A stretch of 64,000 nt of DNA from positions 626,675 to 690,674 of the forward strand of contig NW_025064901.1 in NCBI RefSeq assembly GCF_019112545.1. The letters are read 5' to 3'. The DNA is from Guyanagaster necrorhizus (Eukaryota > Basidiomycota > Agaricomycetes > Agaricales > Physalacriaceae). Below the pieces are notes generated by a model, which was not told the DNA's origin, made no database searches, and was given only the letters and a program-made list of their open reading frames with translations. Of the stretch, positions 2,166 to 62,000 are shown piece by piece. How positions within the stretch are numbered: position 1 is the first letter of the stretch; every line of letters begins with the position of its first letter. The translations under genes were made by a program, and so were the position numbers.

Positions 2166-3076
2166 ATACAACACTACTCCAGACACTACTGGTGCCCCAC
2201 CTTACTATATCAATTTTAACAACTAATTACTACCATTTCAATCACTCCATTCACACTTTTAAAAGTCAAAACCTTGCATTTATATTTTTATCCACTACTA
2301 ACATCTGACACCCTTTTCTATATACAGTTCATACAAAATAATTTTTACAAAGAAGCAGAACCTGATGGACTCACATCAGAATCCAAATTCTCTCTCCATT
2401 CCTTCAACTCCTCTATGTCCTCATTCAGCCTCTTCAACATCATCTCCCAAAGATTCTCCACCTCTTGATCCCTCTCATCCTTGAAGATCAGTCAGGCCTT
2501 CTTCTAGACTTCCACCTCAGACTCTGAAAACAACTCTGAAGGAGATGACATATTATTGGAACCGTAGTCATCTTAAAGGCCTGCCACAGTATCACAAACA
2601 TCTGCCACCTCATCCACCAACTAATCCACATGATGCATCAACTTGTGTATCAATTTTGAAAGTTGGTGGAGACTGGTGGAGATCTCTATGCTACTAATCA
2701 CCTTACTTGTGATGACACTCCAGTTGAATGAACAGGCAGTCTTCTTAATCTTGCAATGTGCACAAGTCTGCCCATATATGGCACCTTTAGTAGTCAGGTG
2801 TGTATAACAATGGACACCATCTTGGTGACAGCACACACAGCTTTCTGAGAACAAAGGCTAAGTCAAACTATACAAGAAAATCAAGACACTTACTTTCACC
2901 ATCCAACAACTCTTTGCCTTCTGCCAGCCCCACCACTTCCAACTTTATCTGCTTCTTGAGACTAAAAACCACCTCTGCCCCACTGTCATCCACTAGGCTC
3001 CTCAACCTGAACTTATATTTATAGCCCCTCTCCACTGGACTCACCACCTTCCTCTTCCCCTCTTGCACTCTCTTTC

Positions 3077-3603
3077 TGTTATGATTTTTCCTATTTTCTT
3101 CCTTTTTTCTTCTCTTTTTCCTTGGAAATGATCCCTATCTTTGCTTAGTCAGAGTGCTTAGCCAGCACCTATGACCGTGGGAACACTTAGCTCAGCAGCC
3201 TAAGTCGGTCATTCTCCCACTGCACTGCTATGCGCTGTGAAGGGAGAGACAATACCTTTTTTGTCCTCAAATTGCAGTGCATGACCACAGCTCTGCAGCA
3301 AGACAACAGCTTTTGTGGGAGACCTGGCAATGGTAGGGGGAATAGCTCTACAGCAGACAATATCTTTTGTGAACAGTTATTTATAACACGATAACAGAAC
3401 AGTATTTAAGTAGTTTAGTTCTCGCTGTAAAAACCCCAGTCTCAAACTAAAGTTTTACTTCACCATCTCATCTCGAGTGAACTGCAACCGCCTTGACTAC
3501 ACAACGCTAGTAACACACAAGTGAACTCTGATAGTATAACCTGAAGTGCAAGGTTCTATCAGTTTATCACGTGTCACTAGTCACATGGAATTTGGGCTTA
3601 ACA
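3077..3603 (+). repeat. B1 5' LTR
   Basis: This 527 bp terminal repeat begins TGTTATGATTTTTCC and ends GGGCTTAACA. It is the same length as the 3' LTR at 10964-11490. It holds a TATA-like TATTTAAG and the presumed transcript start, described separately. Confidence 0.97.
3403..3450 (+). promoter_or_regulatory. B1 LTR promoter: TATTTAAG and presumed mRNA 5' end
   Basis: TATTTAAG starts at 3403. AGTCTCAAACTAA lies at 3438-3450, 35 nt downstream, where transcription would begin. That 13-mer is complementary to the primer site at 3605-3617 with one mismatch, at a CpG-derived position. This is what a self-primed element needs, because the 5' end of its own RNA must pair with the primer site. The transcription start itself is inferred. 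Confidence 0.6.
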
Positions 3604-10879: not shown

Positions 10880-10950
10880 GTCCAGCAGATCACCATCTCC
10901 TGCTGAGGGGTGGAAGACTCCCCTAACTAAACCATCAGGACGATGGTCTT

Positions 10951-11490: not shown

Positions 11491-12229
11491 CTTTCTCCTC
11501 TCCAGGGTTCCCTCAAATTCTTTTGACTCATCGTCCCCTTTGGTCCCCTTATCTTGCTCACTATCAGACTCTAAAGATATACAGCCAGTCACCTTCTTAA
11601 AGTGAAGACTGAGGCCAGGACCAAACTATTTCATCAGCACTTGATGCAACCAAAAATCAATGATCTCCATAGAAGTCATCTGCAACCCATCCTCTGTAAC
11701 CATCTCCTCCTGCTCTGCCTCTGAGACTGAAGCCCTCACTGCAGCCTCCACAGCCTCCCTCTCCTCTACCTCCTTCTGAGCTACCTCTCTCAATGCCTCC
11801 TCCACCTCCTTAGCCCACCTCTCTGCAGCCTGCTAGACCTCCTTCCTCTTCCTCTCCAATTTCTCCTTCTGCTCTCTTTTCTGCATCTCCCAGACCACAC
11901 AGTCTGCCTAAACCTTTTTCTCCCACTTCTGCTCCCCTTGCTATTCCAAATGGCTCTCCATGGCCTCTGCATATTCTTTCTCCATGATCTGCCATTCCAG
12001 ATGAAATAATTCCTTAGCCTCTTTAGGGCCATCAGGGGTAGGTTCTCTTACCAAAGACTCAGGAGTATGCGAGCAATGATATGCAGTGGGAGATGATATA
12101 GTTGAGGCTATGATGGTTGTATCTAACTAAGTTGCAAAAAATTCCCATAGCCATCAACAATCTTCTATATGAATCCATCAGCCACCGGGATCTGTGCTCT
12201 TAAGGGCAAAAACACTAATAGGGGGATAC

Positions 12230-12729
12230 TGTTATATATATGCCATCAGCCTCTGTGTCACCTCAACCAACCATGAATGCAATCACAGAAACCCATCAGA
12301 CTCCAGCTGCTCTCTATTACCTATTAATTTTATTTTACCATTATTATTTTACATTCATATTTCACATTGTAATATTCAGACCCTGAACTCAGTAGTGAAT
12401 ATTGACATCAGAATCCAATAGAATCCAACTTGGAATTAGCTACTATTAGTATATAAAGCCATGTATAACTATTGTAACTACTTAGTTTGAATATCAACTT
12501 GGATAAGCCATCTACACTTCACACTCACTTCAACTCCTTCCTACCTCATCCATCGGATTCTGCTCTGAAGGATATTCCTGTTCGCTTCTCTGACAGAACT
12601 TTATTCTGTCCATTCAGATTCTTGAGCTCTGACTCAAGAGTGACATTGCTAATAGCTTTATCGATATCCATGCACTCTGCTGGATTCCACATGTGCACTC
12701 AAGCCCACTTGATTGGCACATTCCTAACA
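12230..12729 (+). repeat. A1 3' LTR (family A)
   Basis: This 500 bp repeat, TGTTA...CTAACA, follows a purine tract at 12217-12229. It carries a TATATAAAG box and matches the LTRs of A2, A3 and A5 and the solo LTR at 15258. The 5 bp after it are CTGTT; the matching 5' flank lies outside the window. Confidence 0.94.
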
Positions 12730-17997: not shown

Positions 17998-18091
17998 TAT
18001 TAAAAACATGCCAATTGAGTAGACTTGAGTGCACATGTAGAGTCTGGCAGAGTGTGTGGACATCGACAAAGCTACTGGCAATGTCAACAGT
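17998..18091 (-). repeat. family A LTR fragment (94 bp)
   Basis: This matches one end of the minus-strand A5 LTR from TATTAAAAACATG (TGTTAGGAACATG in A5) to GGCAATGTCA, then stops abruptly. The next bases come from the cargo gene. Confidence 0.8.
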
Positions 18092-18165
18092 GGGACAGAA
18101 GTGATTGTTAGCCTCAAAAAGCAGATAAAGTTGGAAGTGGCAGAACCAGCAGAAGGCAAGGAATG
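18091..18165 (+). pseudogene. cargo gene fragment in an A/B mosaic
   Basis: About 75 bp encode the end of cargo exon 1: VSLKKQIKLEV, then a stretch ending EGKE. This is in the orientation expected for a minus-strand family A element. It is joined on the left to an LTR fragment and on the right to the ORF1 of B3, so it is the remains of a fifth family A copy reduced by deletions. Confidence 0.75.
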
Positions 18166-19336: not shown

Positions 19337-19424
19337 TTACCCCCTCCTTAAGACCATCGTCCCAATGGTTAAGTTAGAGGAGTCCTCCCTCCTTGGAAGG
19401 AGGTGGCCGATCTGCTGGACCCGT

Positions 19425-22400: not shown

Positions 22401-23650
22401 TTTGCAATCCAGGTTGGCGTTTGAGTTAGGGATTAATTCGATAGCATGGTCCCATGGTTTTGCATTGGGTAGTTCATCGAAACTTTCTTTTTCGAATAAA
22501 TCCTGATAGTCGCACACCCATTCGGATACCATTTCATCAAATGTCCTTTTCCCTTTTTCAGCATTGGCTTTTGCCACTAGGTCATTAGCATGGTGCATTG
22601 CACAAATGTCAATGGCCTTTTGAAGATCGATGGCGAGTATTGTTTCACCATCTTTCATTTCTTTGTCCCATCGGTCCATGGGATCTTCATCTGGTAATTC
22701 AAATGGGATTTTCCGGCAGTGGCATCGAGCAAAAATGATGTGCCCAATTTTCCAATTGATTAGCAGATTATGTCTGATTAGCCAGTCATGACTGAGGAAT
22801 ACTTCTCTGGTTCCTAGGTCTGTTACTGCTAGATCGATTCGTTCTGAGTGATCGCCGATAGTGAGCCTAAGCTCCATGTATTCGGTAATTGATCTGGCTT
22901 GGTTCTTTGTTCCATCTGTGTTATAGACTGGTATTGGGGCTGCTGTGGCTCGTGTAGGTAATTGGTGCTTGGTGATGAAAGCCCGGTTGATGGAACTTCC
23001 CATGCAGCCACTGTTGATCAGGGCAGTGATTGCATGGGTAGATCGAGATGTTAGTGTCTCGATCTGCACCTTGGTGATTAGATCCTGCCCTGCAGTTTTA
23101 GCTCGACAAATAAACTTTTTGGGTCTGTGTAATTCATCGAGCCATTCAAGTGCTTGGCATCTCTCTCCTTTTTGCATTCCCATGATCATGTCATCAATCA
23201 CTTCTTCAATGTGGGTCTTGTGTACCCAATTTCTGAGTATGGCTTTTGCCACTTCTTTATCCCTCGCATCTTTGATTGCTCGCCAAGTCCATTCAGTATC
23301 GAATGGTTTCAGCCAAGCTGTGGGGTTCTCTACCCCTGTTCAGCCCGAAGGCAGTTGAGTCTATTTTATTTTTTTAGTTTGATGAATGGAGGATGGAAAC
23401 GTATCTTTGGGGCTCTCTGCCCCTCTTCAGCCCTTCGTTGGTGCTTGAGTTATAGAAGTTGGTTTCTTAGGCAATTCTGATTTCTGAGTAATAGGGTCGG
23501 ATATATTTGAATGCATGCATAATTTAGACATAGATGGTAATACTAGAGAAGATAAAGTGTCAGTCTGTCCAGCAGATTGTGACCTGTTACTCGTTTCCTT
23601 GGCTGAGGCAGTCGAATCGCCTACTGCTCGGCCTCATCTTTTAACTCCTC
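19425..23650 (-). pseudogene. B2 pol: protease, RT, RNase H, integrase, chromodomain
   Basis: This is the -1 frame relative to gag, as in B1. It overlaps the gag end near 23640 and runs to TGA 19427-19425. The protease reads NSGC near 23015, with the catalytic Asp changed to Asn by one transition (B1 has DSGC). A long open part (23252-22134) covers protease to RT. YLDDILI is at about 21960. RNase H lies at 21520-21280. Integrase lies in an open stretch, 21122-20361, with HHCC finger, VISDRGPQF and NQEIEKYL. The chromodomain is at 19796-19600 or so (VDYLVSWKGYG). All pieces share one frame. Stops match Trp, Arg or Gln positions. Confidence 0.95.
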
Positions 23651-25822: not shown

Positions 25823-26654
25823 TGATGGGAGTGGTCGGTTCCCGGAACGGAGAGTTGGGAGAGCCGACTGTGGTATCGAGGTAATTGGTGAGGGAGTGTG
25901 AGGTTGGCCGTATTGGGTTTGGTACCACTGGAGTATGCCTTGGTAGGCATGAGGCTCCTCCTTGGCCTTGCTCTAGTCTACTGGCCACTCTTGATGCTGC
26001 TTGCCAGTACTGGACCTTGTCCCTGTTAGTGTCATCGAAGAAAGGGTCAGGACTACTGACCCTTGTTCCTCTCCCGCTACTCCTTGTTGATGAGCGGGGT
26101 CGGGACTGGTGCCTGTTGGCACTTCTGGTGTCTAGAGCCATCTGAATGACATCCAGAGAGTCTCTAGCCCAGCGCCCAATTCCAGACTGGGCGATGGTTG
26201 TTCTTGATGCAGAGAGGCTGCGCTCAGTGGGGGGGACAGGGGTGTCAGATCAGGTTCGTCGAAACCCTGTAGCCTAAGGGTTTCCAGAGTCTCGGACGAT
26301 TGCCGATGGGGGTCTTAGGGGATATTCGTATCGCTGCTGCTGCTGCTCCTCTTCTCTAGAACGTTTTTCAGTCGAGTGCCCAGGCTCGTTTTCTGTTTCT
26401 TCAGGGTGTCAGATGGAGTTTCGGACAGAGGGAGGGATGTTGTGGAGGGGGAGGTCTGGTGTGACATTTTGGAGGATAGTACAGATGTGCTGAAATTCTT
26501 GATAGTGTCGGATGGCCCAGGCGGTAATAGATTGGTGTCCATGGCACAGCTGTATGATCACCAATAAGCCGATCAGGGTTCCAATGATAGAAGCTAAGAG
26601 TTTGAAGAACTCGTGCATAAAGTTTGGATCAGACAGATTTAGAGCAGGGGGCAT
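25290..26654 (-). pseudogene. B2 ORF1 with transmembrane segment
   Basis: The start is taken at the ATG giving MPPALNLSDPNF, the conserved N-terminus; another ATG lies five codons upstream (26669). The hydrophobic helix LASIIGTLIGLLVIIQLC follows at residues 22-39 or so. Next come RHYQEFQHICTILQN and a Ser/Arg-rich stretch, then SLFLCPWFYRNFHRY as in B1. Gag is offset +1. Stops fall at Arg or Trp codons. No family is recognised; a membrane-anchored Gag leader is one reading. Confidence 0.6.
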
Positions 26655-26696
26655 TCGGTTTCTCAGCACAAATAGGCTTGAGAAAAGGAAGCGAGA

Positions 26697-26709
26697 AGTC
26701 TCAAACTAA
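26697..26709 (-). promoter_or_regulatory. B2 self-priming primer-binding site
   Basis: It reads TTAGTTTGAGACT on the element strand, one base inside the 5' LTR. Against B1 the central CpG has decayed to TpG. The R site in the B2 5' LTR has decayed on the other strand (AGTCTTGAACTAA), so the pair now shows two mismatches from one ancestral CpG. Confidence 0.65.
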
Positions 26710-26710
26710 T

Positions 26711-27237
26711 TGTTAAGCCTAAATTCCATGTGACTAGAGACACATGATAAACTGACAGAACCTCACACTTTGGGTTATACTGCCAGAGTTCACTTGTATG
26801 TGACTAGTGTTGTGTTGTCAAGGCGGTTGCAGTTCGCTCGAGATGAGATGGTGAAGTAAAACTTTAGTTCAAGACTGGGGTATTACAGCAAGAACTAAGC
26901 TACTTAAATACTGTTCTGTTATCGCGTTATAAATAACTGTTCACAAAAGATATTGTCTGCTGTAGAGCTGTTCCCCCTACCATTGCCAGGTCTCCCACAA
27001 AAGCTGTTGTCTTGCTGCAGAGCTGTGGTCATGCACTGCAATTTGAGGACAAAAAAGGTATTGTCTCTCCCTTCACAGCACATAGCAGTGCAGCAGGAGA
27101 ATGACCGACTTGGATTGCTGAGCTAAGTGTTCCCATGGTCATAAGTGCTGGCCTAAGCACTCTGACTAAGCAAAGATAGGGGTCATTTCTGAAGAAAAAG
27201 AAAGAAAAATAAGAAGAAAATAGGAAAAATTGTAACA
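26711..27237 (-). repeat. B2 5' LTR
   Basis: This is 527 bp, TGTTAAG...TTGTAACA on the plus strand, followed by GACTA. It pairs with 18810-19336. Confidence 0.97.
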
Positions 27238-27300
27238 GACTAAGCAAAGATAGGGGTCATTTCTGAGGAAAAAGAAAAGAAAATAGAGAAAATCATAACA

Positions 27301-30299
27301 GATACCCTCTCTGAAAAACTACCCGAACACAGGCCATATGACCTCAAAATCAACCTTGAGGAAGGAACATCTCCACTGCTTAGACCCATTTATTCTCTCT
27401 CAGAATCTAAACTCAAGGTCCTACAAGAGTTTATTGATGATAATCTGTGCAATGGGTTCATTTCTCTATCCCACTCTCTATATGAGGCTCCAGTTTTATT
27501 TGTCAAGAAAAAGACTAGTGAACTCTGACTTTGCATTGACTACTGTAGTCTAAACAAAATGTCCAAAAAAGATCACTACTCTCTTTCTCTCATTTCTGAT
27601 CTCCTCAACTCTGTCTGCTCTGCACACATCTACACCAAGCTTGACCTTTGGCATGCCTACCATCTCATTCACATAGCTAAGAGGGATGAATGAAAAACAG
27701 CCTTCTGAATCCATTACAATTCCTTTGAATGACATGTCATACTTTTTGGCCTCACAAATGCTCCAGCAGCATTCCAATGATTTGTGAATGATATATTCTC
27801 TGACATGCTCGATAAATCAGTAGCAGTCTACCTCGATGACATCCTCATATATTCTGACAATCCAGAAGATCACCAGAAACATGTTCGTGAGGTCCTACAC
27901 AGGTTTAGAGCTAATAAACTCTACTGCAAAGGTTTCAAATGTGAATTCAACCAGGATTCCATAGAGTACCTAGGCTACATCCTATCACCTGAAGGACTTT
28001 GCATGTCTGAAGAAAAAGTCAAGACCATTGTTGACTGGCCAGTGCTGTGAAAAGTCAAGGACATCCAATCCTTCCTTGGCTTTGCCAACTTCTACTATCA
28101 CTTCATACATAGATATAGNNNNNNNNNNNNNNNNNNNNNNNNNNNNNNNNNNNNNNNNNNNNNNNNNNNNNNNNNNNNNNNNNATGAAAATTTGATAACA
28201 AATGCTTGGCTGCCTTCAATGAATTGAAACAGGCCTTTACACATGCCCCCATCCTTACCCACAGGGTCCCCGATCAAAAGATAGTGGTGGAAACTGATGC
28301 CTCCAACTATGCAATTGCAGCTATCCTCTCCATCTATCTTGAAGATGGCAAAATTCACCCCATCGCTTTCCACTCCCAGAGCCTCCACAATGCTGAACTC
28401 AGCTATGACACCCATGACAAAGAGCTTCTAGCCATTTTTGAAGCCTTTAAACATTGGTGGCATTACCTTGAAGGCTCCATGGACTCCATCGATGTCATAA
28501 CAGACTACAAGAACCTTGAATACTTCGCCACCACTAAGATTCTATCCTGCCAACAGGTCCGCTGGTCTGAATACCTATCTCAGTTCAACCTAGTAATCCA
28601 GTTCCACCCTGGAAAACTTGGTGGGAAACTGGATGTGCTCACTAGATGATGGGACATCTACTCTAAAGAGAGAGATAGCCAATATGCCTAAATCAACCCC
28701 CACAATTTCTGACCTGTGTTCACCTAAGAACAACTCTCTGCATCACTCTGAGCAACCTATCTTGAAGGCCCCACCCTACAGGCTAGTGCTATCATAGATA
28801 TCAACAAACTCCATACTGATATCAGACAAGCACAATCCTCTGATGCTACATCCTTCAATGGCCTCCACCAGGCCAAGGCCACTTCTGAATCCTCTCCCTC
28901 TCAATGATCTATTGACAAATCCAACATCCTTCACTTCAAAGGCTGCATCTATGTCCTGGACTCTGATAATCTCCATCTCTATATACTATAGAACAATCAT
29001 AACCATATCTTGGCAGGTCACTTTAGTCAAAACCAGACATTAGAACTAATCCAGCAGAACTACACCTGGCCAAAGATGCATGAATATGTCCAACACTATA
29101 TTAAATCCTGCACAGTTTGTGGGCAGAATAAAGCACTCAGACACTACTCCTATGGGTTACTCAAACCTCTGCCAGTTTCTGAATGACCATGAGATTCTAT
29201 TTTCATGGACTTCATTGAACAACTACTGGACTCCAATGGATTCACCACTATCTTAGTAGTCATAGACTGAGCTAGCAAGCAAGCCATCTTCATTCCCACT
29301 CATGACATCATCAACTCCATGGAGCTTGCCCAACTTTTTCTTATCTATATATTCTCCAAACATGGGGTATCCAGTCACATCACATCTGACTGCAGCTCCA
29401 AATTTGTCTTCCAATTTACTCATGCCTTAGCTGTAGCCCTTGACATAGAACTCCACCTTATCTCTAGTTATCATCTGGAGGCTGACAGCCAAACTGAATG
29501 AGCAAACCAAACTCTGAAACAATACATCTGCATCTACTGCTCCTACCAGCAGGATAACTGGGACACCCTCTTACCCATTGCTGAATTCGCCTACAAAAAT
29601 GCCCTTAATGTGTCTACTGGAATTTCTCCATTCTTCACTAACAAGGGTTACCACCCCAACATCACTGTTCACCCTGAAAGGGATATCACCTCCACCCGGG
29701 CCTGAGATTTCATGGTCAATCTTGATGAACTCCATCAATTACTAAAGGATGAAATTTCTGAAGCCCAGTCTCGCTGCAAGACCCAAGCAGACAAGCACTG
29801 GATTTTGGCATCTCTGTTCACAGTAGGGGACAAGGTCTACCTCAGCTCCAAACATATCAAAACCACCTGCCCGACCAGAAAATTCTCAGAGAAATACCTT
29901 GGTCCTTTCAAAATCATAGCTCAATCTGGTACCCACTCCTTTACCCTGAGGCTTCCACCAGACCTCTGGTCCATTCACCCCATCTTCCATGTGTCACAAT
30001 TGGAACCCATAGAAGAAAACACCATTCTTAACTGAATCCAACCACCACTACCTCCAGTTAAAGTTGATGGAGAAGAACATTTTCAAATAGCCCAAATCCT
30101 CAACTCTAAACTAGACCACCGGTTCCACTGCCCACTGCTGTACAAAATCTAGTGGCAAGGATATGAAGGTACCAACAAAGAATTTGCTTAGTTATCAGCC
30201 TCCAAGTTCTCTGCCGATGAATTTATTGAAGAATTCTACCATCGATATCCAGACAAACCAGGACTCTTGTCTAAAGTTATTCAAACATCCCATTCCTAA
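27301..30299 (+). pseudogene. A2 pol: RT, RNase H, integrase, chromodomain
   Basis: It starts at DTLSEKLPEH-like sequence (compare A4 at 48197). RT motifs include an intact YLDD at 27829-27840 and IQSFLGFANFY before the gap. RNase H after the gap reads ETDASNYAIAAIL and YDTHDKELLAIF (28290-28520). Integrase covers about 28930-29700 and the chromodomain about 30110-30250. TAA 30297-30299 is the conserved end. More than ten in-frame stops occur (for example 28048, 28647, 29499, 30033), mostly TGA at Arg positions. It is inactive, in contrast with the open cargo frame of the same copy. Confidence 0.93.
28119..28183. other. assembly gap (65 N)
   Basis: This run of N lies within A2 pol between RT and RNase H. 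A1 bases 5-49 show that about 45 nt are expected here. A gap in a repeat suggests that neighbouring repeat copies may also be imperfectly assembled. Confidence 0.99.
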
Positions 30300-30477: not shown

Positions 30478-31862
30478 TTACAAAGAAGTGGAACCTGATG
30501 GGCCTGCATCAGAACTCAAACTCTCCTCCTGCTCCTTCAACTCCTCTATATCCTCATTCAGCCCCTTCAACATTGCCTCCTGAAGATCCTCCACCTCCTG
30601 ATCTCTCTCATCCTTAAAAATCAGTTGGGCCTTCTTCCAGGCCTCTATCTCAGACTCTGAAAACAGCTCTGAAGAAGATGACATATCATCGGAACTGTAG
30701 TTATCTTGAAGACCTGCCACAGTATCATGAACATCCACCACTTTATCTGCCAACTCATCCATGTGATGCATCAACTTGCATATCAATTGTGAAAGTTGGT
30801 GGAGACCGGCGGAGATCTCCACACTGCTGATCACCTTGCTCACAGTGACCCCCTTGTTGAATGAACAGGTGGTTTTCTTGATCTTGCAGTGAGAGCAAGT
30901 CCACCCTCGACCGGTGCCTTCAGTTACCAGGCATGCATAACACCAGGCACCATCTTGATGACAGTGCACACAACTCCCTAAAAACAAAAAAAGCTAAGTT
31001 GAGCCATGAAAGAAAACTAAGACACTTACTTTCACCATTCAACAATTCCTCACCCTCCACCAGTCCCGCCACTTCCAACTTTGCCCACTTTTTGAGGCTA
31101 ACAACCACCTCTGTCCCACTGCCATTCACTACACTCCTCGACCTGAACTTGCATTTATGGTCTTTCTCCGCTGGACCTGCTGCTCTTCTCTTCCCCTCCC
31201 ACACCCTCTTCCTCCTCTCCAGAGTCCCCTCAGATTCCTCAGACTCATCATCCCCCTCAGTCCCCTTGTCCTGTTCATCATCGGATTCTGGAGGCATAGA
31301 GCAAGTCACCTTCTTGAAGCGAAGACCAGGGCCAGGACCAAACCGTTCTGCCAACACTTGATGCAGCCAAAAATCAACAGCCTCTGTGGGGGTCATTTGC
31401 AACCCATCCTCCATAACCATCCCCTCCGGCTCTATCTCCTCAGCCTCAGCCCTCACCACTGCCTCTGTGGCCTCTCTCTCCTCAGCCTCCCTCTGAGCCA
31501 CCTCTTTCAATGCCTCCTCTGCCTCTTTAGCCCGCCTCTCCACAGCCTGCTGAACCTCCTTCCTCTTTCTCTCCAACTCCTCCTTCTGCTCCTTTTTCCA
31601 TGCCTCCCAGGCCACATGGTCCACCCAGGCCCTCTCCTTCTGCTCCTGCTCCCCTTGCCATTCCAAATGGCTCTCCATGGCCTCCACATATTCTTTCTTC
31701 ACAGTTTGCCATTTCAGATGAAATAATTCCTTGGCCTCTTCAGAGCCATTGGGAGTGGATCCCCTCACCAAAGGCTTGGGAGTGCATGAGTGACAATATA
31801 GACAAAGATGGTGGTTTCAGATCAAGCTGAAAAAACTCCCACGGCCACCAACAATCTTCCAT
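30478..31862 (-). CDS. antisense cargo gene, best copy (coiled-coil plus Zn2Cys6-like protein)
   Basis: The two exons are 31862-31030 and 30977-30478 with a 52 nt intron; the phase matches, so both open frames join. The start ATG (MEDCWW) is 61 bp from the 3' LTR, as in A3 and A5. Exon 1 encodes a Glu/Lys/Arg coiled coil (roughly residues 40-130), then GLQMTPTEAVDFWLHQVL, an acidic patch and basic stretches. Exon 2 opens with C-X2-C-X6-C-X2-C-X11-C-X2-C-X6-C, close to a Zn2Cys6 cluster, then a second coiled coil and a TAA. From 31771 to the stop no in-frame stop is present. The only break seen is one extra T near the N-terminus. It ends 178 bp from the pol stop, convergently. It resembles Cys-rich hypothetical proteins common in agaricomycetes (from memory). 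The function is unknown. Confidence 0.82.
30978..31029 (-). other. spliceosomal intron in the A2 cargo gene
   Basis: This 52 nt intron has donor GTAAGT, a branch-like CTCAAC/CTTAGC stretch, a T-rich tail and acceptor TTTTTAG. Splicing joins phase-1 exon 1 to exon 2 in frame. Equivalent introns are 49 nt in A1 (2893-2845) and A3 (46118-46070) and 50 nt in A5 (58329-58378). On the element's own RNA the intron is antisense, so retrotransposition would not remove it. Confidence 0.88.
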
Positions 31863-31923
31863 ATGGCCCCACCAGCCATCAGGATCTGCACTCTTGAGAG
31901 CCAGAATGCTAAGAGGGAAATAC

Positions 31924-32415
31924 TGTTATGTGCATGCCACTGGCCTCCATATCACCTCAACCAACCGCGAATCCAATCACACTACCCATCGGACTCTGAC
32001 CGCTTCCCATTACCTACTAATTTCATTTCACCAGTATCATTTCACATCTGTATTTCACATTGTAATATCTAGACCCTGAACTCAGTAATGAATACTGACA
32101 CCAGAACCCAATGGAACCTGACTCAGAATTAGCTACCATTAGTATATAAAGCCATGTACATCATCATAGCTACTCAGTTCAAATATCAACTTGGATAAGC
32201 CATCTACACTTTGTACTCACCCCTTCCTATCTCACCCATCGGATTCCACTCTGAAGGATACTCCTGCTCACTTCTCTGATGGAACTTCGGTCTGTCCATC
32301 TAGATCCTTAGGCTCCAACTCAAAGGTGACATTGCCAATAGCTTCATCAACACTCATGCACTCTGCCGGACTCTGTGCATGCACTCAAGCCTATTTGATT
32401 GGCATGTTCCTAACA
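31924..32415 (+). repeat. A2 3' LTR
   Basis: This is 492 bp, TGTTATG...CCTAACA, with TATATAAA at 32143-32150. It is preceded by the purine tract AAGAGGGAAATAC. Confidence 0.95.
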
Positions 32416-43523: not shown

Positions 43524-45398
43524 CTTCTGGCCATTTTTGAAGCTTTTAAACATTGGTAGCACTACCTTGAAGGCTCTGCAGACTCTATCAATATTATAAC
43601 AGACCACAAGAATCTTGAATACTTTGCCACCACTAAGATTCTAACCTGCAGACAAGTCTGCTGGTCTGAATACCTATCTCAGTTCAACCTAATAATCTGG
43701 TTTCAACCTGGAAAACTTGGTGAGAAACCAGATGCACTTACTAGACAATGGGATATCTACTTTAAAGAGAGGGATAGCTAATACACTCAAGTCAATCTCC
43801 ATAATTTTTGACCAGTGTTCACTCAAGAACAACTTTCCATGTCACTCTATACAACCTATCTTGAAGGCCCTACTCTCTGAGCCAGTGCCATTATAGATAT
43901 TGACAAGCTCCACATTGATATCAAACAAGCACAATCTTCTGACCCTACGTCCTCTGATGGCCTCTGTCAGACTAAGGCCACTTCGGAATCCTCCCCCTCT
44001 CAGTGGTCTATTGATGAATCAGACATCCTCTACTTTGAAGGCTGCATCTATGTCCTGGAGTCTAGAGATCTCCATCTCCGTATACTACAGAACAATCACA
44101 ACTACATCTTGGCAGGCCACTTTGGTCAAAATCAGACATTAAAACTAGTCCAGCAAAACTATATCTGGCCAAAGATATGCAAATACATCTGACACTATGT
44201 TAAGTTCTGCATAGTTTATGGATGCAATAAGGCACCTAGACACCACTCTTATGGGTTACTCAAACCTCTGCCAGTTCCTGAATGGCCATGGGATTCCATT
44301 TCCATGGACTTCATTGAATAACTACTGGACTCCAACAGATTCACTGCCATCTTAGTAGTCATAGAGCGAGCTAGCAAGCAAGCCATCTTCATTCCCACTC
44401 ACGACACCATTAACTCTGTGGAGCTTGCCCAACTTTTCCTTATCCACATATTCTCCAAACATGGAGTACTCAGTCACATCACATCTGACTGTGGCTCTAA
44501 ATTTGTCTCTCAATTTACTTATGCCTTAGCCATGGCTTTTGATATGGAGCTCCATCTTACCTCTGGTTACCATTCGGAGGCCAACAGACAAACCAAACAG
44601 GCAAACCAAACTCTGGAACAGTACATCTGTATCTACTGCTCCTACCAACAGGACAACTGGGACACCCTCCTACCCATTGCTGAATTTGCCTACAACAATA
44701 CCCCTAACGCATTCACTGGAATTTCCCCATTTTTCACCAATAAGGGTTACTACTCCAACATCACCATTCATCCCAAAAGAGATATCACCTCCACCTGGGC
44801 CTGAGATTTCACAGTCAACCTTGATGAACTTCATCAATTACTGAAGGATGAAATTTCTGAAGCTCAGTCTCACTACAAGATCCAAGCAGATAAGCATCAG
44901 ATTCTGGCACCTCCATTTACAGTAGAGGACAAGGCCTACCTCAGCTCCAAACATATCAAAACCACCTGCCCGACCAGAAAATTTTTGGAAGAATACCTTG
45001 GTCCTTTCAAAATTATAGCCTAACCTGATACCCACTCCTTTATTCTAAGGCTTCTGTCAGATCTCCAGTCCATTCACCCTGTCTTCCATGTGTCACAATT
45101 GGAACCCATAGAAGAAAACACCATTCCTAACCAAATCCAACCACCACTGCCTCCAGTCGAAGTCGATGAAGAAGAACATTTCGAAATAGCCTAAATCCTC
45201 AACTCTAAACTGGATCACTGGTTCTGCTGCCCACTGTTGTACAAACTCCAGTGGCTAGAATACAAAGGTACCAATGAAGAATTTGCATGATTACCGGCCT
45301 CTGAGTTCTCCACTGACAAATTCATTAGAGAATTCCACCACCAATACCCAGACAAACTAGGACTCTTGTTTAAAGTCATTCAAACATCCCATTCCTAA
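43524..45398 (+). pseudogene. A3 pol 3' part: RNase H end, integrase, chromodomain
   Basis: The first codons, LLAIFEAFKHW, belong to the second half of RNase H. The integrase zinc-finger region is at about 44030-44230, with the second Cys pair decayed. The core is in an open stretch, 44418-44804 (HITSDCGSKF, QANQTLEQY). The integrase C-terminus (FTVEDKAYLSSKHIKTTC) is near 44920-44970 and the chromodomain at about 45210-45330. TAA 45396-45398 matches A1 and A2. Stops such as TAG in place of the Arg/Gln codon after KHW are transitions. Confidence 0.92.
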
Positions 45399-45569: not shown

Positions 45570-46950
45570 TTACAAAAAGGCAGAACCTGACGGGCCCACA
45601 CCAGAACCTGAACTCTCTCCCTGCTCCTTCAACTCCTCTATATCCTTATCCAGCCCATTCAATATTGCCTCCTGAAGATCCTCTATCTCCTGATCCCTCT
45701 CATCCTTGAAAATCAGTCGGGCCTTCTTTCAGGCCTCCATCTCGGACTCCAAAAACAGCTCCGAAGGAGACAACATATTATTAGAACCATAGTCATCTTG
45801 AAGATCTGCCACAGTACTATGAACATCCACTACCTCATCTGCCAACTCATTCATGTGATGCATCAACTTGCATATCAATTTTGAAAGTTGATGGAGACCG
45901 GTGGAGACCTTCACACTGCTGATCACCTCACTCACGGTGATGCTCTTATTGAATGAACAGACAGTTTTCTTGACCTTGCAGTGAGAGCAAGTCTGCCCTC
46001 AACTGGTGCCTTTGGTTACCAGTCATGCATAACACTATGTGCCATCTTGATGACAATGCATACAACTCTCTGAAAACAAAAGCTAAGTTAAGCCAGAAAA
46101 GAAAACCAAGACACTTACTTTTACCATCCAACAATTCTTCGCCCTCTGTTGGTCCCACCACTTCCAACTTCACCTGCTTTTTGGGGCTAACAACCATCTC
46201 TGTCCCACTACTATTCACTATGCTCCTCAACCTGAATTTGCATTTATGGCCCTTCTCTACCAGACCTGCTACTCTTCTCTTCCCCTCCTGCACCTTCTTC
46301 CTCCTCTCCAGAGTCCCCTCAGATTCCTCGGACTCATTGTCTCCCTCAGTCCCCTTGTCCTGCTCATCATCAGACCCTGGAGATACAGGGTGAGCCACCT
46401 TCTTGAAGCAAAGACCAGGGCCAGGACCAAACCATTCCACCAACACTTGATGCAGCTGGAAATCAATGGCCTCTGCAGGAGTCATTTGCAACCCATCCTC
46501 TGTAACCATCCCCCTCAGCTCTACCCCCTCAGTTTCAGCTCTTGCTGCTGCCTCCACAGCCTTCCTCTCCTCAGCCTCCCTCCGAGCTGCCTCTCTCAAT
46601 GCCTCCTCTACCTCCTTTGCCTGCCTCTCCATAGCCTGCCAAACCTCCTCTCTCTTTCTCTCTAATTCCTCCCTCTGCTCCTTTTTCTATGACTCCTGGG
46701 CCACATGGTCCACCCGGACTCTCTCCTCCTGCTCCTGCTCCTCTTGCCATTTCAAATGGCTCTCCACAGCTTCCACATATTCTTCCTCCATGGTTTGCCA
46801 CTCCAGACAAAACAATTCCTTGGCCTCTTCAGGGCCATCAGGGGTGGACCCCCTCACCAGAGGCTCGGGAGTGCATGAGTGATGACATAGGCGAAGATGG
46901 TGGTTTCAGTTTAAGCTGCAAAACTCCCATGGCCACCAACAATTTTCCAT
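45570..46950 (-). pseudogene. antisense cargo gene, copy A3
   Basis: Exon 1 is 46950-46119, the intron 46118-46070 (49 nt, GTAAGT...CAG), and exon 2 46069-45570 (500 nt, TAA). The exon sum is 1332 nt, in frame (443 codons). The start, MENCWWPWEF, lies 61 bp from the 3' LTR. The coiled coil of exon 1 is well kept (a long open part, 46632-45946, runs into the intron). Stops appear in exon 1 (TGA, TAG at Trp) and in the Cys cluster (C3 is preceded by TAG; C4 is TGA). It ends 171 bp from the pol stop. Inactive. Confidence 0.85.
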
Positions 46951-47011: not shown

Positions 47012-47509
47012 TGTTACATGCATGCCACTGGCCTCTGTGTCATTTCAACCAACCACAAATCCAATCATGCTACCCACTGGACTCCAGCCGCTTCCCATTA
47101 CCTACCAATTTCATTTCACCATTATCATTTCATATCTGTATTTCATATTGTAATATCTAGACCCTGAACTCAGTAGTGAATACTGACACTGGAACCCAAT
47201 GGAACCCAACTCAGAATTAGCTACCATTAGTATATAAAGCCATGTACATCATTGTAACTACTCAGTTTGAATATCAACTTGGATAAGCCATCTGCACTTC
47301 ACACTCACTTCAACTACTCTCTATCTTGTCTGTCGGATTCCGCTCCAAAGGATATTTCTATTCACTTCTCTGATGGAACTCTATTCCACCCATTCAGATC
47401 CTTGGGCTCTGACTCAAGGGTGATGTTGCCAATAGCTTTGTCAACACCCACACACTCTGCCAGACTCCATGTGTGCACTCAAGCCCACTCGATTGGCACA
47501 TTCTTAACA
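47012..47509 (+). repeat. A3 3' LTR
   Basis: This is 498 bp, TGTTACATG...TTCTTAACA, preceded by AAGAGAGGGATAC. It is followed directly by ATAGCTACCAATGA of A4 pol. Confidence 0.95.
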
Positions 47510-50500
47510 ATAGCTACCAATGATATTTCTATTAAAACCATTCCTAGTATGCAACTCTAATTATTTGATAGCTCTGTCAGAAACTGCATATCTCAAATCA
47601 CAACTATCTCTATCTATTTCTCTTCTGGAGACACTTTTTCTATTAACTTTTATTTCACTCATCTGGATTCATTGTGCAATCTTGTTTTGGAATACAATTA
47701 GCTCTCTTACTACAATCCACTGATTGACTGGACTGAAAACAGTATCACTTTTCATGCAAGCTATCAGGATCTCACTCTAACTAATTCCACAGCTTCAACC
47801 ACATCTCCAGGACTTCCATGCTCATAGAACAACAGTCCATCTCTCTCTGAGCCTTTCAGCTCAATTTCAGGATTTTTATGCTCACTGGACTCCATTAGTC
47901 TAACCTCCAAAGCTTCACTCTGTTCTAAATCTCCTTTAGGTAGCTAGCAGATCCTGTTTTTATATGAACTCATCTATTCCTATTCTCTCTTAGAGTCTTT
48001 TATTATGAAAGCACATCCAAAGATTTCCATCATATCTGATACTGCATTTGTCTGCACCAGTGTAGAAGAAGATGTTCAGCAGTTCATGCTGCAGTCTTTC
48101 TTGCCTAATATTGGAGTCAAAGCTGCATCTGCAGAACCAGCTGATCTTTTATTAGTACTAGTAGAGTACTATGATTTTGCAGACATCTTCAGTGATACCC
48201 TCTCTGAAAAGCTACCCAAACACAGGCTGTATAATCTCAAGGTCAATCTTGAGGAAGAAACATCTTTACTGCTTGGGCTTATTTATTCTCTCTCAAAATC
48301 TGAACTCAAGGCTCTACAAGAGTTTATTGACAATAATCTGCACAATAGGTTCATTACTCTGTCCCACTCTCTATATAGGGCTCTAGTCCTGTTTATCAAG
48401 AAGACTGGTGAACTCTGACTTTGCATCAACTACTACAGTCTAAATAAAATCTCTAAGAAGAATTGCTATCCTCTTTCTCTTATTTCTGATCTCTTTGACT
48501 CCACTCACTCTGCATGCATCTACATCAAGCTTGACCTTCAATATGCCTACTATCTTATTCATATAGCTAAGGGTGATAAATGGAAAACAGCCTTTGAGAC
48601 CTGCTATAGTTCTTTTGAATAGCATATCATACCTTTTAGCCTTACAAATGCTCTAGTAGCATTTCAGTGCTTTGTGAATGATATATTTTTTAACATGCTT
48701 GATATATTAGTAGTAGTCTATCTTAATGATATCCTCATATATTCTGACAATTCAGAAGATTACCAGAAACATGTTCATAAAGTTCTATACAGACTTAGAG
48801 CTAATAGACTGTACTGCAAAGACTTTAAATACAAATTCAACTGGGACTCTGTGAAATACCTACATCCTATCATCTGAAGGACTTTGCATGTCTGAAGAAA
48901 AAGTTAAAGCTATTGTTGACTGGCTAGTGCTGTGAAAAGTTAAAAACATCTAATCTTTTCTTAGCTTTGCTAACTTCTATCATTACTTCATATGTAAATA
49001 TAACAATATTATTATTCTCTTTATATGACTCATTCACAAAGAAATTCTGTGGATTTTGATGACAAATGCATGGCTGCCTTCAACAAGTTGAAACAGGCCT
49101 TTACATATATGGTCCAAATACCTATCCCAGTTCAATCCAATAATTCAGTTCTGCCTGGGAAAACTTAGTGAGAAACCAGATGCACTCACTAGATGATAGA
49201 ATGTCTACTCTAAAAAGAGCAATAGCCAATATGCTCAAGTCAACCTCTATAATTTTTGATCTATCTTTATCTAAGAAAACTCTCTGTATCACTATGCAAT
49301 CTATCTTGAAGGCTCTATCCTCTGAGCTAGTGCTATTATAGACATTGACAAGCTTCATGTCAATATCAAAAGAGCACAATCCTCTAACCTTACATTATTC
49401 AATAGCCTCTACTAGGCCAAAGCCACTTCTGAATCCTCTCCCTCTCAGTGGTCTATTGATGAATCTGATATTCTTCATTTGAAGGCTGCATCTATATTCT
49501 GGACTCCAATGATCTCTATCTCTGTATACTACAGAACAATCACAACTATATCTTAGCAGACCACTTTAGTCAAAATCAAATATTAGAGCTAGTCTGATGA
49601 AATTACATCTGATCAAAGATGAATGAATATGTTCAACACTATATTAAATCCTGCACAGTTTGTGGGCACAACAAGACACCTAGACACCACCCCTATAGAT
49701 TGCTCAAACCTCTATCAGTTCTGAAATGACTATGGAATTCTATTTTTATAGATTTCATTAAACAACTATTGGACTCCAATAGATTCACTACCATCCTAAT
49801 AGTCATTGACTAGGCTAATAAATAAGCAAACTATTTTTATTCCTATTCATAACACCATCAACTCTATGAAACTTATCTAACTTTTTGTTATTCATGTCTT
49901 CTCCAAGCATGGAGTATCCAGCCATATCACCTCTGACTATGGCTCCAAATTTATTTTCCAGTTCACTTGTACTTTAGCTATAGCCCTTGACATGAAACTT
50001 CACTTTACTTCTGGTTACCATCCAGAGGCCAACAGACAAACCAAATATACAAACCAAACTTTAGAACAATATATCCATATCTACTGCTTCTACTAACAGG
50101 ACACCTGGAACACTCTCTTACTCATTGCTAAGTTTGCCTATAATAATGCCTCTAATGTATCTATCAGAATCTTCTCATTCTTTGCTAATAAGAGTTACCA
50201 CTCTAACATCAATATTTATTTTAAACAGTCAATCTTAACAAGCTTCATCAAGTACTAAAAGATGAAATTTCTGAAGTTCAGTCTTATTATAAACCTTAGC
50301 TCAAGCAGACAAGCATCAGATTCCAGTATCTCTGTTCAAAGTGAGCAATAAGGTTTATCTCAGTTCAAAACACATCAAAATCATCTGTCTGATCAGAAAA
50401 TTCTCTGAGAAATACCTTGATCCTTTTTAAATCTTAGCCTAATCTAACACCCTCTTGTTCACTCTTAAATTCTCACTGGATCTCTGGTCCATTTACTCAG

Positions 50501-56920: not shown

Positions 56921-57420
56921 TGTTAGGAACATGCCAATCAAGTGGACTTGAGTGCACATATAGAGGCCAGCAGAGTGCATGGGCATTAATGAAGCTATTG
57001 GCAATGTCACCCTTGAGTTGGAGCCCAAAGATCTAGATGGACAGAATGGAGTTCCATCAGAGAAATGAACAGGAGTATCCTTTGGAGTGGAATCTGATAG
57101 ATGAGGAAGAGAGGAGTTGAAGTGAATGCAAAGTGTAGATGGCTTATTCAAGTTGATATTTGAACTGAGTAGTTACAATGGTTATACATGGCTTTATATA
57201 CTAATAGTAGCTAATTCTGAGTTGGGTTCCATTGGGTTCTGATGTCAATATTTGCTACTGAGTTCAGAGTCTAGATATTACAATGTGAAATATAGATTGA
57301 AATGATAATGGTAAAAATGAAATTAATAGGTAATGGGGAGTGGCCAGAGTCTGATGGGTTTCTGTGATTGCAGTCATAGTTGGTTGAGGTGACACAGAGA
57401 CTAGCAGCATGCACATAACA
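56921..57420 (-). repeat. A5 3' LTR
   Basis: This is 500 bp, TGTTAGG...ACATAACA on the plus strand. It belongs to the same length class as the A1 LTR. Confidence 0.95.
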
Positions 57421-57481: not shown

Positions 57482-58878
57482 ATGGAAGATTGTTGGTGGC
57501 TGTGGGAAATTTTTGCAACTTGATCAGATACCACCACCATCACCCTAACTATGTCACCTCCTGCTGCATATTGTTGCTCACATACTCTTGAGCCTTTGGT
57601 GAGAGAACCCACCCCCAATGGCTCTGAAGAGACCAAAGAATTATTTTGTCTGGAATGACAGACTGTGAAAGAAGAATATGCAGAGGCCATGGACAGCCAT
57701 TTGGAATAGCAAGGAGAGCAGGAGTGGAAGAAAAAGGTTTGAGTGGACCATATGGCCTAGGAGGTGCAGAAAAGAGAGCAGAAGGAGGAATTAGAGAGGA
57801 AGAGGGAAGAGGTCCAGCAGGTCATGGAGAGGCAGGCTAAGAAGACAGAGAAGACATTGAGAGAGGTGGCTTAGAGGAAGGCTGAGGAGAGGGAGGCTAT
57901 GGTGATGGCTTCAGTCTCAGAGGTAGAGCAGGAGGGGATAGTTACAGAGGATGGGTTGCAGATGACCCCTATGAAGGCTATTTATTTTTAGCTGCATCAA
58001 GTGCTGGTAGAACAGTTTGGTCCTGACCCCAGTCTTTGCTTCAAGAAGGTGACTGGCTGTATGCCTCCAGAGTCTGATGGTAAGCAAGATAAGGGGACTA
58101 AGAGAGACAATGAGTCAGAAGAATCTGAGAAAACCCTAGAGAGGAGAAAGAGGGTGCAAGAAGGAAAGAGAAAGATAGTGGGTTTGGCAGAGAAGGGTCA
58201 TAAATGCAAGTTCAGATCAAGGAGCATAGTGAATGGTAGTGGGGCAGAGGTGGTTGCTAGTCCTAAGAAGTGGGCAAAGTTGGAAGTGGTGGGGCCAGTA
58301 GAAGACAAAGAGTTGTTGGATGGTGAAAGTAAGTATCTTGGTTTTTTTGCATAGTTTGACTTAGCTTTTTGTTCTCAGAAAGCTGTGTGCACTGTCACCA
58401 AGATGGTGTCTGTTGTTATGCATGCCTGGCCACTGAAGACATCAGACATGGGTGGACTTATGCATATTGCAAGATTAAGAAGACTGCCTGTTTGTTCAAC
58501 TAGGGTGTCACTGTAAGCAAGATGATTAGTAGTGTGGAGGTCTCTGCCAGTCTCCACTAACTTTCAAAATTGATACACAAGTTGATGCATCACATGGATG
58601 AGTTGGTGGATGAGGTGATGGATGTTCACAGTACTGTGGCAGGTCTTCAAGATAACTATAGTTCTGATGATATGTTGTCTCCTTCAGAGCTGTTTTCAGA
58701 GTCTGAGGTGGAGGCCTGAAAGAAGACCCAACTGATTTTCAAGGATAAGAGAGATCAGGAGGTGGAAGATCTTCAGGAGGCAATGCTGAAGAGGCAGAAT
58801 GAGAATGTGGAGGAATTGAAGAAACAGAGGGAGAGTTCAGGTTCTGGTGTGGGCCTGTCGGGTTCTGCTTCCTTGTAA
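57482..58878 (+). pseudogene. antisense cargo gene, copy A5
   Basis: Exon 1 is 57482-58328, the intron 58329-58378 (50 nt, GTAAGT...TTCTCAG), and exon 2 58379-58878 (500 nt, TAA). The total is 1347 nt, in frame (448 codons). ATG 57482 (MEDCWWLWEIF) is 61 bp from the 3' LTR. About eight stops are present, nearly all TGG to TAG/TGA or CAG to TAG. The long open piece 58001-58354 includes DKGTKRDNESEES and the basic region. In the Cys cluster C5 reads Tyr (WTYAYCKIKKTAC). It ends 172 bp before the pol stop, convergently. Inactive. Confidence 0.86.
58329..58378 (+). other. spliceosomal intron in the A5 cargo gene
   Basis: This 50 nt intron has a GTAAGT donor, TTGAC as a likely branch motif, a T-rich tract and a CAG acceptor. 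Its phase (1) and position are the same as in A1, A2 and A3. Confidence 0.86.
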
Positions 58879-59050: not shown

Positions 59051-62000
59051 TTAGGGATGGAATGTTTGAATGACCTTGGATAAGGGTCCTGGTTTGCCTA
59101 AGTATCAATGGTGGAATTCTTCAATAAATTCATCAGTGGAGAACTCAGAGGCCAGTAGCCAAGCAAATTCTTTATTGGTACCTTCATAGCCTAGCTATTG
59201 AATCTTGTATAGCAGGGGGCAGTGAAACTGATGGTCTAGCTTCAAGTTGAGGATTTGAGCTATTTTGAAATATTCTTCTCTGTTGACTTCAACTGGAGGC
59301 AACAGTGGTTGGATTTGGTTAGGGATAGTGTTTTCTTCTATGGGTTCTAATTGTGACACATGGAATACTAAGTGAATGGACCAGAGATCCAGTGGAAGCC
59401 TCAGGGTGAAGGAGTGGAAACTCAGTTGGACTATGATTTTGAAAGGGCCAAGGTATTTCTCTGAGAATTTCCTGGTCAGACAGGTGGTTTTGATATGTTT
59501 GGAACTGAAGTAGACCTTGTCACTCACTGTGAATGGGAGTGCCAGAATCTGGTGCTTGTCTGCTTGAGTCTTGTAGCAAATCTGAGCCTTAGAGATTTCA
59601 TCTTTTAATATTTTATAGAGTTTATCAAGATCAACTACAAAGTCTTAGGCCCAAGCAGAGGTGATGTCTCTTTCAGAGTGAATGATGATGTTAGGGTGGT
59701 AACCCTTGTTAGCAAAAAATGGGGAAATTCCAATGGACACATTAGGAGCATTGTTGTATGCAAACTTAGCAATGGGTAAGAGGGTGTCCCAGTTGTCCTG
59801 TTAGTAGAAGCAGTAGATGCAGAGTACTATTCCAGAGTTTGGTTTGCTTGTTTGGTTTGTCTGTCAGCCTCCAGATAGTAACCAGAAGTAAGATGAAGTT
59901 CCATGCCAAGAGCTATAGCTAAGATGTGAGTAAATTGGGAAACAAATTTGGAGCTGCTATCCAAGATGATATGACTGGGTATCCCATGTTTGAAGAAGAC
60001 ATGGATAAGAAAAAGTTGAGCTCTGCAGAGTTAATGGTGTTGTGAGTGGGGGTAAAGATGGCTTGCTTGCTAGCTCAGTCTATGACTACTAAGATGGCAG
60101 TAAATTCATTGGAGTCTGGTAGTTGTTCAATGAAATCTATGGAAATAGAATCCCATGGTCATTCAGAGACTGATAGAGGTTTGAGTAACCCATAGGGATG
60201 GTGTCTAGGTGCCTTGTTGCATCCACAAACTGTGCAGGACTTAACATAGTGTCAAACATATTCACATATCTTTGGCCAGGTGTAATTCTGCCAGATAGCC
60301 TCTAATATCCAGTTTTGACCAAAATGGCCTGCTAAGATGTGGTCATGATTGTTCTGTAGTATATGGAGATAGAGATCTCTGGACTCTGGGATATAGATAT
60401 GGCCTTCAAAGTGGAGGATGTCTGATTCATTAATGGACCACTGAGAGAGAAAGGATTTCAAAGTGGCCTTAGCCTGGCAGAGGCCATCAGAGGATGTAGG
60501 ATCAGAAGATTGTGCTTATTTGATATCAATGTGGAGCTTGTCAATGTCTATGATGGCACTGGCTGAGAGGGTAGGGCCTTCAAGGTAGGTTGCATGGAGT
60601 GACACAGAAAGTTGTTCTTGGGTGAACACCAGTCAGAAATTGTGGAGATTGACTTGAGTGTATTGGCTATCTCTTTTTTTAGAGTAGACATCCCATTGTC
60701 TAGTAAATGCATCTGGTTTTTCACCAAGTTTTCTAGGTTGAAACCAGATTATTAGGTTGAACTGAGATAGGTATTCAGATCAGCAGACTTGTCTGCAGGT
60801 TAGAATCTTAGTGGTGGCAAAGTATTCAAGGTTCTTATGGTCTGATATAATATTGATAGAGTCTGCAGAGCCTTCAAGATAGTGCTGCCAATGTTTAAAA
60901 GCTTCAAAAATGGCCAGGAGCTCCTTGTCATGAGTGTTATAGTTGAGTTCAGTATTGTAGAGGCTCCAAGAGTGAAAAGCAATAGGATGAATTTCACCAT
61001 CTTCAAAGTAGATAGAGATGATAGCTACAATGGCATAATTAGAGGCATCAGTTTCCACTACTATCTTTTAATTGGGGACCCAGTGCATAAGGATGGGAGC
61101 ATGTGTAAAGGCCTGTTTCAGATCATTGAAGGCAGCCAAGCATTTGTCATCAAATTTCCATGAAGTTCTCTTGTGGGTGAGTCATGTAAGAGGGATAATG
61201 ATGTCGCTATATCCATGTATAAAGTGATGGTAGAAGTTGGCAAAGCCAAGGAAGGATTGGATGTCCTTGACCTTTGGTGGCACTAGCCAGTCAACAATGG
61301 CCTTGACCTTTTCTTCAGACATGCAAAGTTCTTCAGGTGATAGGATGTAGCCTAGGTATTCCATAGAATCCTGGTTGAATTTGCATTTGAAACTCTTACA
61401 GTAGAGTTCATTAGCTCTAAGCCTGTGTAGGACCTCATGGACATGTTTCTGGTGATCTTCCAGATTGTTGGAATATATAAGGATGTCATCAAGGTAGACT
61501 ACTACTGATATATTGAGCATATCAGAGAATATATCATTCACAAATCATTGGAATGCCACTGGAGCATTTGTGAGGCCAAAAGGCATGACATGCCACTCAA
61601 AGGAACCATAACAGGTCTGAAAGGCTGTTTTCCATTTGTCCCCTTTGGCTATGTAAATGAGATGGTAGGCATGTCACAGGTCAAGCTTGGTGTAGATGCA
61701 CACAGAGTGGGCAGAGTCAAGGAGGTCAGAAATGAGGGAAAGAGGGTAGCAATCTTTCTTAGAGATTTTGTTTAGACTGTAGTAGTCAACACAGAGTCAG
61801 AGTTCACCAGTCTTCTTCTTGACAAATAGGACTGGAGCTCTGTGTGGAGAGTGGGATAGAGTAATGAACCCATTGCATAGATTATCATCAATAAACTCTT
61901 GTAGGGCCTTGAGTTCAGATTCTGAGAGAGAATAAACAGATTCAAGCAGTGGAGATATTCCTTCCTCAAGGTTGATTTTGAGGTTGTACAGCCTGTGTTC

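Follow-up and report, generated by a model that had tools for sequence, protein, structure and literature searches.

An antisense, intron-containing gene between pol and the 3' LTR of chromoviruses in Guyanagaster necrorhizus

Antisense genes of LTR elements

The closest described system to the gene studied here is brtn, found in the Boty-like elements of Botrytis cinerea and Sclerotinia sclerotiorum. brtn is listed among the antisense genes that lie between pol and the 3' LTR (PMC7264820), the gag-pol of the Boty-like element carries a CHROMO domain (PMC4227169), brtn is given as an additional ORF of BcGypsy1 (PMC8365987), and a Monilinia transcript resembles BRTN (PMC5987419). The sequence-only reading of our DNA had been aware of no antisense extra ORF in fungal chromoviruses, but brtn is such a case (PMC7264820, PMC4227169). 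The two cases are alike in that both are fungal Ty3/gypsy elements with a CHROMO domain and have a gene in antisense orientation between their pol and 3' LTR. They differ in that the hosts of brtn are ascomycetes, and we set brtn beside our gene by description and not by sequence. The 26 homologues that we found, in a search of limited sensitivity, included none from Botrytis.

Plants have genes in the same place, known as aORF-3R, and these include gene23 of maize Grande and the genes of rice RIRE2, Silene Retand (with a TRP28 domain) and PvRetro13 (PMC11963269, PMC7264820). The plant ORFs are kept in most copies and are common to several families, and nuclear localisation has been reported for Grande GENE23 (PMC11963269, PMC7264820). 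Our gene resembles them in lying antisense between pol and the 3' LTR, in most copies and in several families, but their hosts are plants and Retand belongs to a non-chromovirus lineage. The Pfam results for our gene contained no TRP28 match. "Intron" does not occur as a word in PMC11963269 or PMC7264820.

For fungi, a clade of chromoviruses is described that carries additional genes (PMC2774666), and chromodomain elements have been reported with a dUTPase and with an additional ORF whose function is unknown (PMC2864245). The likeness to our case is the presence of additional genes in chromoviruses; the word "antisense" is absent from the text of both papers. Among retroviruses, HBZ and APH-2 of the human T-cell leukaemia viruses are antisense genes with a nuclear product (PMC11963269), and the antisense promoter of these viruses is within the 3' LTR (PMC7264820). 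We use HBZ/APH-2 as a working analogy only, for an antisense gene with a nuclear product, and claim no relation in sequence. HBZ is spliced.

The antisense accessory gene is a kind of gene that is already known, fungal chromoviruses included. What looks new here, with brtn compared by description, is the host lineage, an intron held across families, the protein family, and a natural control in the form of an element without the gene. Our literature searches, which had most subscription journals outside their coverage, turned up no description of a gene like this from basidiomycetes.

The host element and its copies in the window

The window is a stretch of 64,000 nucleotides that forms part of contig C22, and the genome that we searched has 53.3 Mb in 109 contigs. 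The sequence-only reading had placed a two-exon gene at 30478-31862, antisense between pol and the 3' LTR, and both the coordinates and the strand were right: the gene is on the minus strand, between the integrase/chromodomain region (plus strand, to 30296) and the LTR. In this copy, A2, the ATG is at 31862 and the last base of the stop is at 30478. The gene was also said to be shared by three other copies (A1, A3 and A5) and a fragment, and all of these were recovered by DNA or translated search. The features are as follows.

27298..30296, plus strand: pol of copy A2 (end of the protease region, RT, RNase H, integrase, SH3_Tf2-1 and chromodomain region)
30478..30977, minus strand: exon 2 of the antisense gene, copy A2, with the six-cysteine motif and the terminal stop
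30978..31029, minus strand: intron of the antisense gene, copy A2, GTAAGT...TTTTTAG, 52 nt
31030..31862, minus strand: exon 1 of the antisense gene, copy A2, with ATG at 31862; frame broken, 17-bp deletion
31911..31920, plus strand: polypurine tract adjoining the 3' LTR, copy A2 (by eye)
31924..32415, plus strand: 3' LTR of copy A2, TGTTAT...CTAACA
2348..3083, minus strand: 3' part of the antisense gene, copy A1 (exon 2 and the end of exon 1)
11491..12168, minus strand: 5' part of the antisense gene, copy A1, with a nested LTR element (about 3077-11493) between it and the 3' part
12230..12729, plus strand: 3' LTR of copy A1
18086..18163, plus strand: fragment of the antisense gene (residues 253-278)
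43737..45395, plus strand: integrase/chromodomain of copy A3
45570..46950, minus strand: antisense gene, copy A3, broken
47012..47510, plus strand: 3' LTR of copy A3, its start placed by analogy with A2
56921..57420, minus strand: 3' LTR of copy A5
57482..58878, plus strand: antisense gene, copy A5, broken (the element is on the minus strand)
59057..60707, minus strand: integrase/chromodomain of copy A5

None of the window copies encodes the full protein. The spliced frame from the ATG stops after 40 codons in A2, 14 in A3 and 13 in A5, and the gene of A1 is cut in two by another inserted LTR element. The length first given for the gene, about 443-451 codons, agrees with intact copies elsewhere in the genome (449-450 codons) but not with the window copies, which are all broken.

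A second LTR family is inserted into family A copies at 3077-11493 and 18810-27237 of the window. Its LTRs are about 530 bp long and 95-96% identical within a copy, and in A1 it sits inside the antisense gene.

By its sequence, the element that hosts the antisense gene is a Ty3/gypsy chromovirus of the Tf1/sushi type. Its domains are in the order gag, PR, RT-RNase H, integrase and C-terminal chromodomain. In the pol of A2, 65 bases are N (28119-28183), and the domains were taken from L010, a relative with an intact frame. A Pfam scan of L010 gave Retrotrans_gag, RVP_2, Integrase_H2C2, rve and SH3_Tf2-1 above cut-off, and a scan of the window detected RNase H and SH3_Tf2-1. RT was assigned by eye (YLDD), and the Chromo match (E 5e-4, 20.4 bits) is below the curated cut-off of 25.1 bits. 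The LTRs of family A are about 490-500 bp (TGTTAC...CTAACA) and full copies are about 8 kb. LTR-LTR identity within a copy ranges from 424/483 to 475/492 in the 15 copies that had both LTRs aligned, and the differences between copies look, by eye, to be mostly C-to-T at CG sites.

Tf1 is self-priming, with a primer site that pairs with the beginning of its own RNA. In our element, the sequence that follows the 5' LTR (GTATATTCGAACT...) is unlike a tRNA primer site. In nine of 15 copies (L010, L011, L014, L015, L018, L019, L021, L023 and L026) there is an exact 11-nt complement of this sequence in the LTR, 33 nt downstream of the TATA box, and in the other six the complement is only 5-6 nt. The sequence match in the nine copies may point to Tf1-like self-priming. 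A TATA box lies 284-286 bp upstream of the antisense ATG in 19 of 20 copies. We considered whether it could belong to an antisense promoter and rejected the idea, as it is the sense TATA box read on the other strand.

Insertion, linkage, intron and frame

Searching the genome with the A2 gene gave 40 scored places (38 of them outside the window) from 272 candidates. Every scored place spans 1304 or more of the 1385 bases, and this abundance is far beyond chance. We fetched 20 copies, which were the best 20 of the 38 places outside the window and so are biased toward copies that are like A2. An LTR lies beyond the antisense gene in all 20 (whole in 19, partly matched in L024), and the position and strand of the gene are consistent in the fetched copies and the window copies.

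The window holds a cluster of several copies, which is what one might see if they were segmental duplications of a single locus. The copies are spread over many contigs with different flanks, however, and in 15 of the 20 fetched copies we could score the target duplications (the other five had one LTR masked, cut or off the stretch). The 5-bp duplications were exact in ten of these, differed by one base in two, and mismatched in three (L018, L026 and L027). The identical target duplications of ten of the 15 show that the family A copies are separate insertions. Segmental duplication is ruled out for the copies tested, and we give it practically no credence as a general explanation.

The gene was proposed to travel with its element, and its linkage to integrase agrees with these separate insertions. 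Taking the 150 scored matches to the integrase C-terminus (out of 1940 candidates) as a base, the antisense gene lies downstream and on the opposite strand at 125 or more of them, and on the same strand at 0 of the 150 among the matches listed. Gene-body matches account for 86 of these at least 125 places, with a gap between integrase and gene of 49-306 bp (median 185), and exon-1 matches for 39, of which 38 are at 1.06-1.37 kb and one at 2.5 kb. We read three of the 25 integrase places that had no listed gene match: the gene was present at L047, a remnant was present at L044, and the gene was absent at L045. From the side of the gene, 86 of 143 gene places adjoin one of the 150 integrases listed and 57 adjoin none among the matches listed. 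The sequence-only reading had allowed that homologues might be found only as single host genes unlinked to LTRs, and inside this genome the evidence goes against that.

The arrangement extends to families well outside family A. An integrase end in sense orientation is beside the antisense gene in six of ten divergent loci, and there was no integrase beside the gene in the stretch read at the other four (L037, L038, C46 and C18). Identities to family A at the six are:

L041: integrase 80%, antisense protein 59%
L036: integrase 71%, antisense protein 30%
L040: integrase 66% over 62 residues, antisense protein 29%
L039: integrase 64% over only 25 residues, antisense protein 32%
L035 and L032: integrase 58-59%, antisense gene matched using an Armillaria protein

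A related LTR lies beyond the gene in L036, L039, L040 and L041. These same four, of eight divergent loci searched (the rest being L029, L031, L035 and L038), have an intron acceptor just before the first cysteine, and of these, L039 and L041 retain the GTAAGT donor, which is altered in L036 and L040. At L031/L034 (C18, about 405375 to 412500) a gag-like region that is 63% identical adjoins an antisense gene of the Armillaria type, with no matching integrase between the two. This may be a non-autonomous or rearranged element.

We compared the intron and the frame in 23 copies, the 20 fetched copies and three from the window, with A1 omitted because the insertion splits it. The claim that the gene keeps its intron holds: the intron begins with GTAAGT in 23 of 23 copies and ends with AG in 22 of 23. 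Its length is 49-56 nt and varies through its T-run. The spliced frame is open in five of the 20 fetched copies, with 449 codons in L010, L013, L017 and L019 and 450 in L020. The introns of L010, L013, L017, L019 and L020 are 53, 51, 52, 51 and 52 nt, respectively, and despite this variation the five copies share one spliced frame. Read without splicing, the frames end at 300 (L010), 466 (L013), 374 (L017), 466 (L019) and 375 (L020). In L013 and L019 the intron is in frame and open, and therefore read-through is possible in these two.

For selection, we made pairwise dN/dS estimates against one reference copy, L013. The antisense frame gave 0.33 for L041, 0.29 for A5 and 0.38 for A3, and in all three comparisons no other of the six frames was as low. 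In close copies the values were 0.56 (L017), 0.69 (L010), 0.56 (L019) and 0.59 (L026), and the antisense frame was the lowest of six only in L017. With CpG-prone sites excluded and both exons included, divergence at third positions compared with first and second positions was 2.0-fold for L041, 1.9-fold for A5, 1.5-fold for A3 and only 1.1-fold for L046. A dN/dS comparison had been proposed as a check on the gene. It supports purifying selection between subfamilies, but this is not visible in every comparison, A3 and L046 being the cases in point. Judged from these alignments, the antisense frame is under purifying selection between subfamilies. Since dN/dS is low between subfamilies and higher between close copies, the frame was probably under selection during the active period of the subfamilies, with decay setting in once the copies had inserted.

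We considered whether the constraint is instead on an extra sense-strand ORF after pol, which the antisense frame would merely mirror. There is a sense frame of 282 codons that mirrors exon 1 in L010, and the mirror frame has the second-lowest dN/dS (0.41 for L041, 0.38 for A5 and 0.52 for A3), because its third positions are shared with the antisense frame. Against this, in five of six divergent sequences the protein of antisense exon 1 scores higher than the mirror (318 versus 305, 88.6 versus 63.9, 73.9 versus 48.1, 69.7 versus 50.1 and 274 versus 227 bits), and the sixth, L035, gave no convincing match for either frame. Stop-containing codons number 17, 24 and 17 in the mirror frame of L041, A5 and A3 and 6, 9 and 5 in the antisense frame. 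Constraint on a sense frame also leaves the intron and the Armillaria proteins (see below) unexplained, and we consider it very unlikely.

Some elements have lost the gene. At L045 (C4:1797217) there are only about 180 bp between the integrase and the LTR, and the antisense gene is cleanly absent. The deletion junction recurs at C69:43941 with one mismatch, there was no match to the antisense gene at that site, and the 3' flanks of the two sites differ. The simplest reading of these junctions would be two or more insertions of a derivative that had already lost the gene, with the same deletion arising twice as the alternative that is left. Because the gene-less form occupies two sites, the antisense gene seems to be dispensable in cis.

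A smaller deletion, of 17 bp in exon 1 (alignment columns 221-246), is present in 9 of the 23 copies and shifts the frame of exon 1 in eight of the nine. We considered it as a marker of a single clade and found no support for this, as the carriers are scattered on the tree, although many of the branches are poorly supported. The deletion is flanked by 9-bp direct repeats (by eye), and since it lies between these repeats and its carriers are scattered, it has likely arisen by slippage more than once or passed from copy to copy by exchange. With the gene-less form at two sites and the 17-bp deletion in so many of the aligned copies, it follows that many copies arose without an intact antisense gene.

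The protein and its possible role

The cysteines of the family A protein are spaced C-x2-C-x6-C-x14-C-x2-C-x6-C, and the Armillaria proteins have a loop of 8 instead of 14. The Zn(2)-Cys(6) cluster (PF00172) is a two-helix binuclear zinc fold with the spacing C-x2-C-x6-C-x(5-12)-C-x2-C-x(6-8)-C. The Armillaria protein P0001 fits this spacing with its loop of 8, whereas the loop of family A is 14. UniRef names 11 of the 26 homologues as Zn(2)-C6 fungal-type. Pfam, however, recognised no domain in either exon or in the Armillaria proteins, and the best Zn_clus matches (E 0.13 and 2.1) are below the curated cut-off. We found no relative with a solved structure. A structure model of P0001 has long helices and a mean pLDDT of 57.8, and it is of low confidence at the cysteine region, with short strands there and no helices. 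The protein recalls zinc-cluster regulators, but that it belongs with them is not established. Basic tracts, KRKF and PKKRAK among them, also occur in the family A protein.

A search with the whole protein, which scored the 7995 candidates sharing most words, returned three proteins, all from Armillaria, and the best is 32% identical over 94% of the query (E 4.7e-19). Searching with residues 284-392 gave no match. Searching with residues 228-475 of the Armillaria protein gave the 26 proteins, of which 23 are named, and all 23 are from Armillaria (8 from A. solidipes, 9 from A. borealis, 5 from A. ostoyae and 1 from A. gallica). Three of the Armillaria proteins (P0004, P0012 and P0026) have an insert exactly at the intron site and two (P0001 and P0003) do not; at the protein level the insert is consistent with an intron there. 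The Armillaria type has about 120 extra residues compared with family A, and loci on C46, C27 and C43 of our genome match parts of that region. No relative was found in viral contigs, scanned with the Armillaria alignment and the integrase, or in prokaryote genome contigs, scanned with P0012.

We believe, with moderate confidence, that this is an accessory gene of a fungal chromovirus of the Tf1/sushi-like kind, antisense to the element and spliced by the host, and that its product acts in trans and is probably nuclear. An antisense transcript would start on the opposite strand, probably in or beside the 3' LTR, because the start codon is about 60 bp from that LTR. The host spliceosome would cut out the single phase-1 intron. 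Retrotransposition would leave the intron in place because the genomic RNA is sense and contains just the intron's complement, on which the spliceosome cannot act. The product would be about 450 residues long, with a motif of six cysteines that probably binds metal, regions rich in helix on either side of it, and basic tracts that resemble nuclear signals. It would act in the nucleus, in trans and to the benefit of the element; it might, for instance, bind DNA or RNA of the element and so tune its transcription, silencing or integration. The suggestion in the sequence-only reading that the gene may regulate the element or its host is likewise a conjecture.

It is possible that the antisense RNA, spliced or not, is the active product and pairs with the element's RNA to limit or time its expression, with the protein being secondary. 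Such a role for antisense transcription of LTR elements is discussed in PMC7264820, and the region does hold its place across families. A non-coding role does not explain why dN/dS in the antisense frame is as low as 0.29-0.38 between subfamilies or why the protein has a match over nearly its whole length in Armillaria, so we think it is unlikely.

The gene could also be a captured host gene with a cysteine motif that hitchhikes in antisense orientation as neutral cargo, of no benefit to the element. The intron and the cysteine and helix make-up do resemble those of a host gene, and elements without the gene are also present, at two sites. However, the gene lies beside most of the scored integrase matches and is kept in families whose integrases have diverged to 58-80% identity. 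The purifying selection between subfamilies also counts against neutrality, although not against capture as the origin. On this evidence we think neutral cargo is quite unlikely.

We return to the accessory protein, for which a bolder version can be put forward, tentatively, as possible and rather improbable. The gene would be a host-derived regulator resembling the zinc-cluster proteins, carried since before the chromovirus families and the bearers of the Armillaria homologues split. Its intron would limit expression to integrated DNA copies through host splicing, and the protein would be an HBZ-like, trans-acting master regulator of the swarm of elements. Individual copies would be silenced by slippage, and gene-less derivatives would use the protein of others.

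If our explanation is true, antisense accessory genes would be a recurrent invention of LTR elements, found in plants, ascomycetes, a mushroom relative and retroviruses. A conserved intron, many copies, a natural control without the gene and a tractable protein would then make the function of such genes testable. Going by the sequence matches, orphan groups of proteins that are annotated as "Zn(2)-C6" in Armillaria genomes may be retrotransposon genes.
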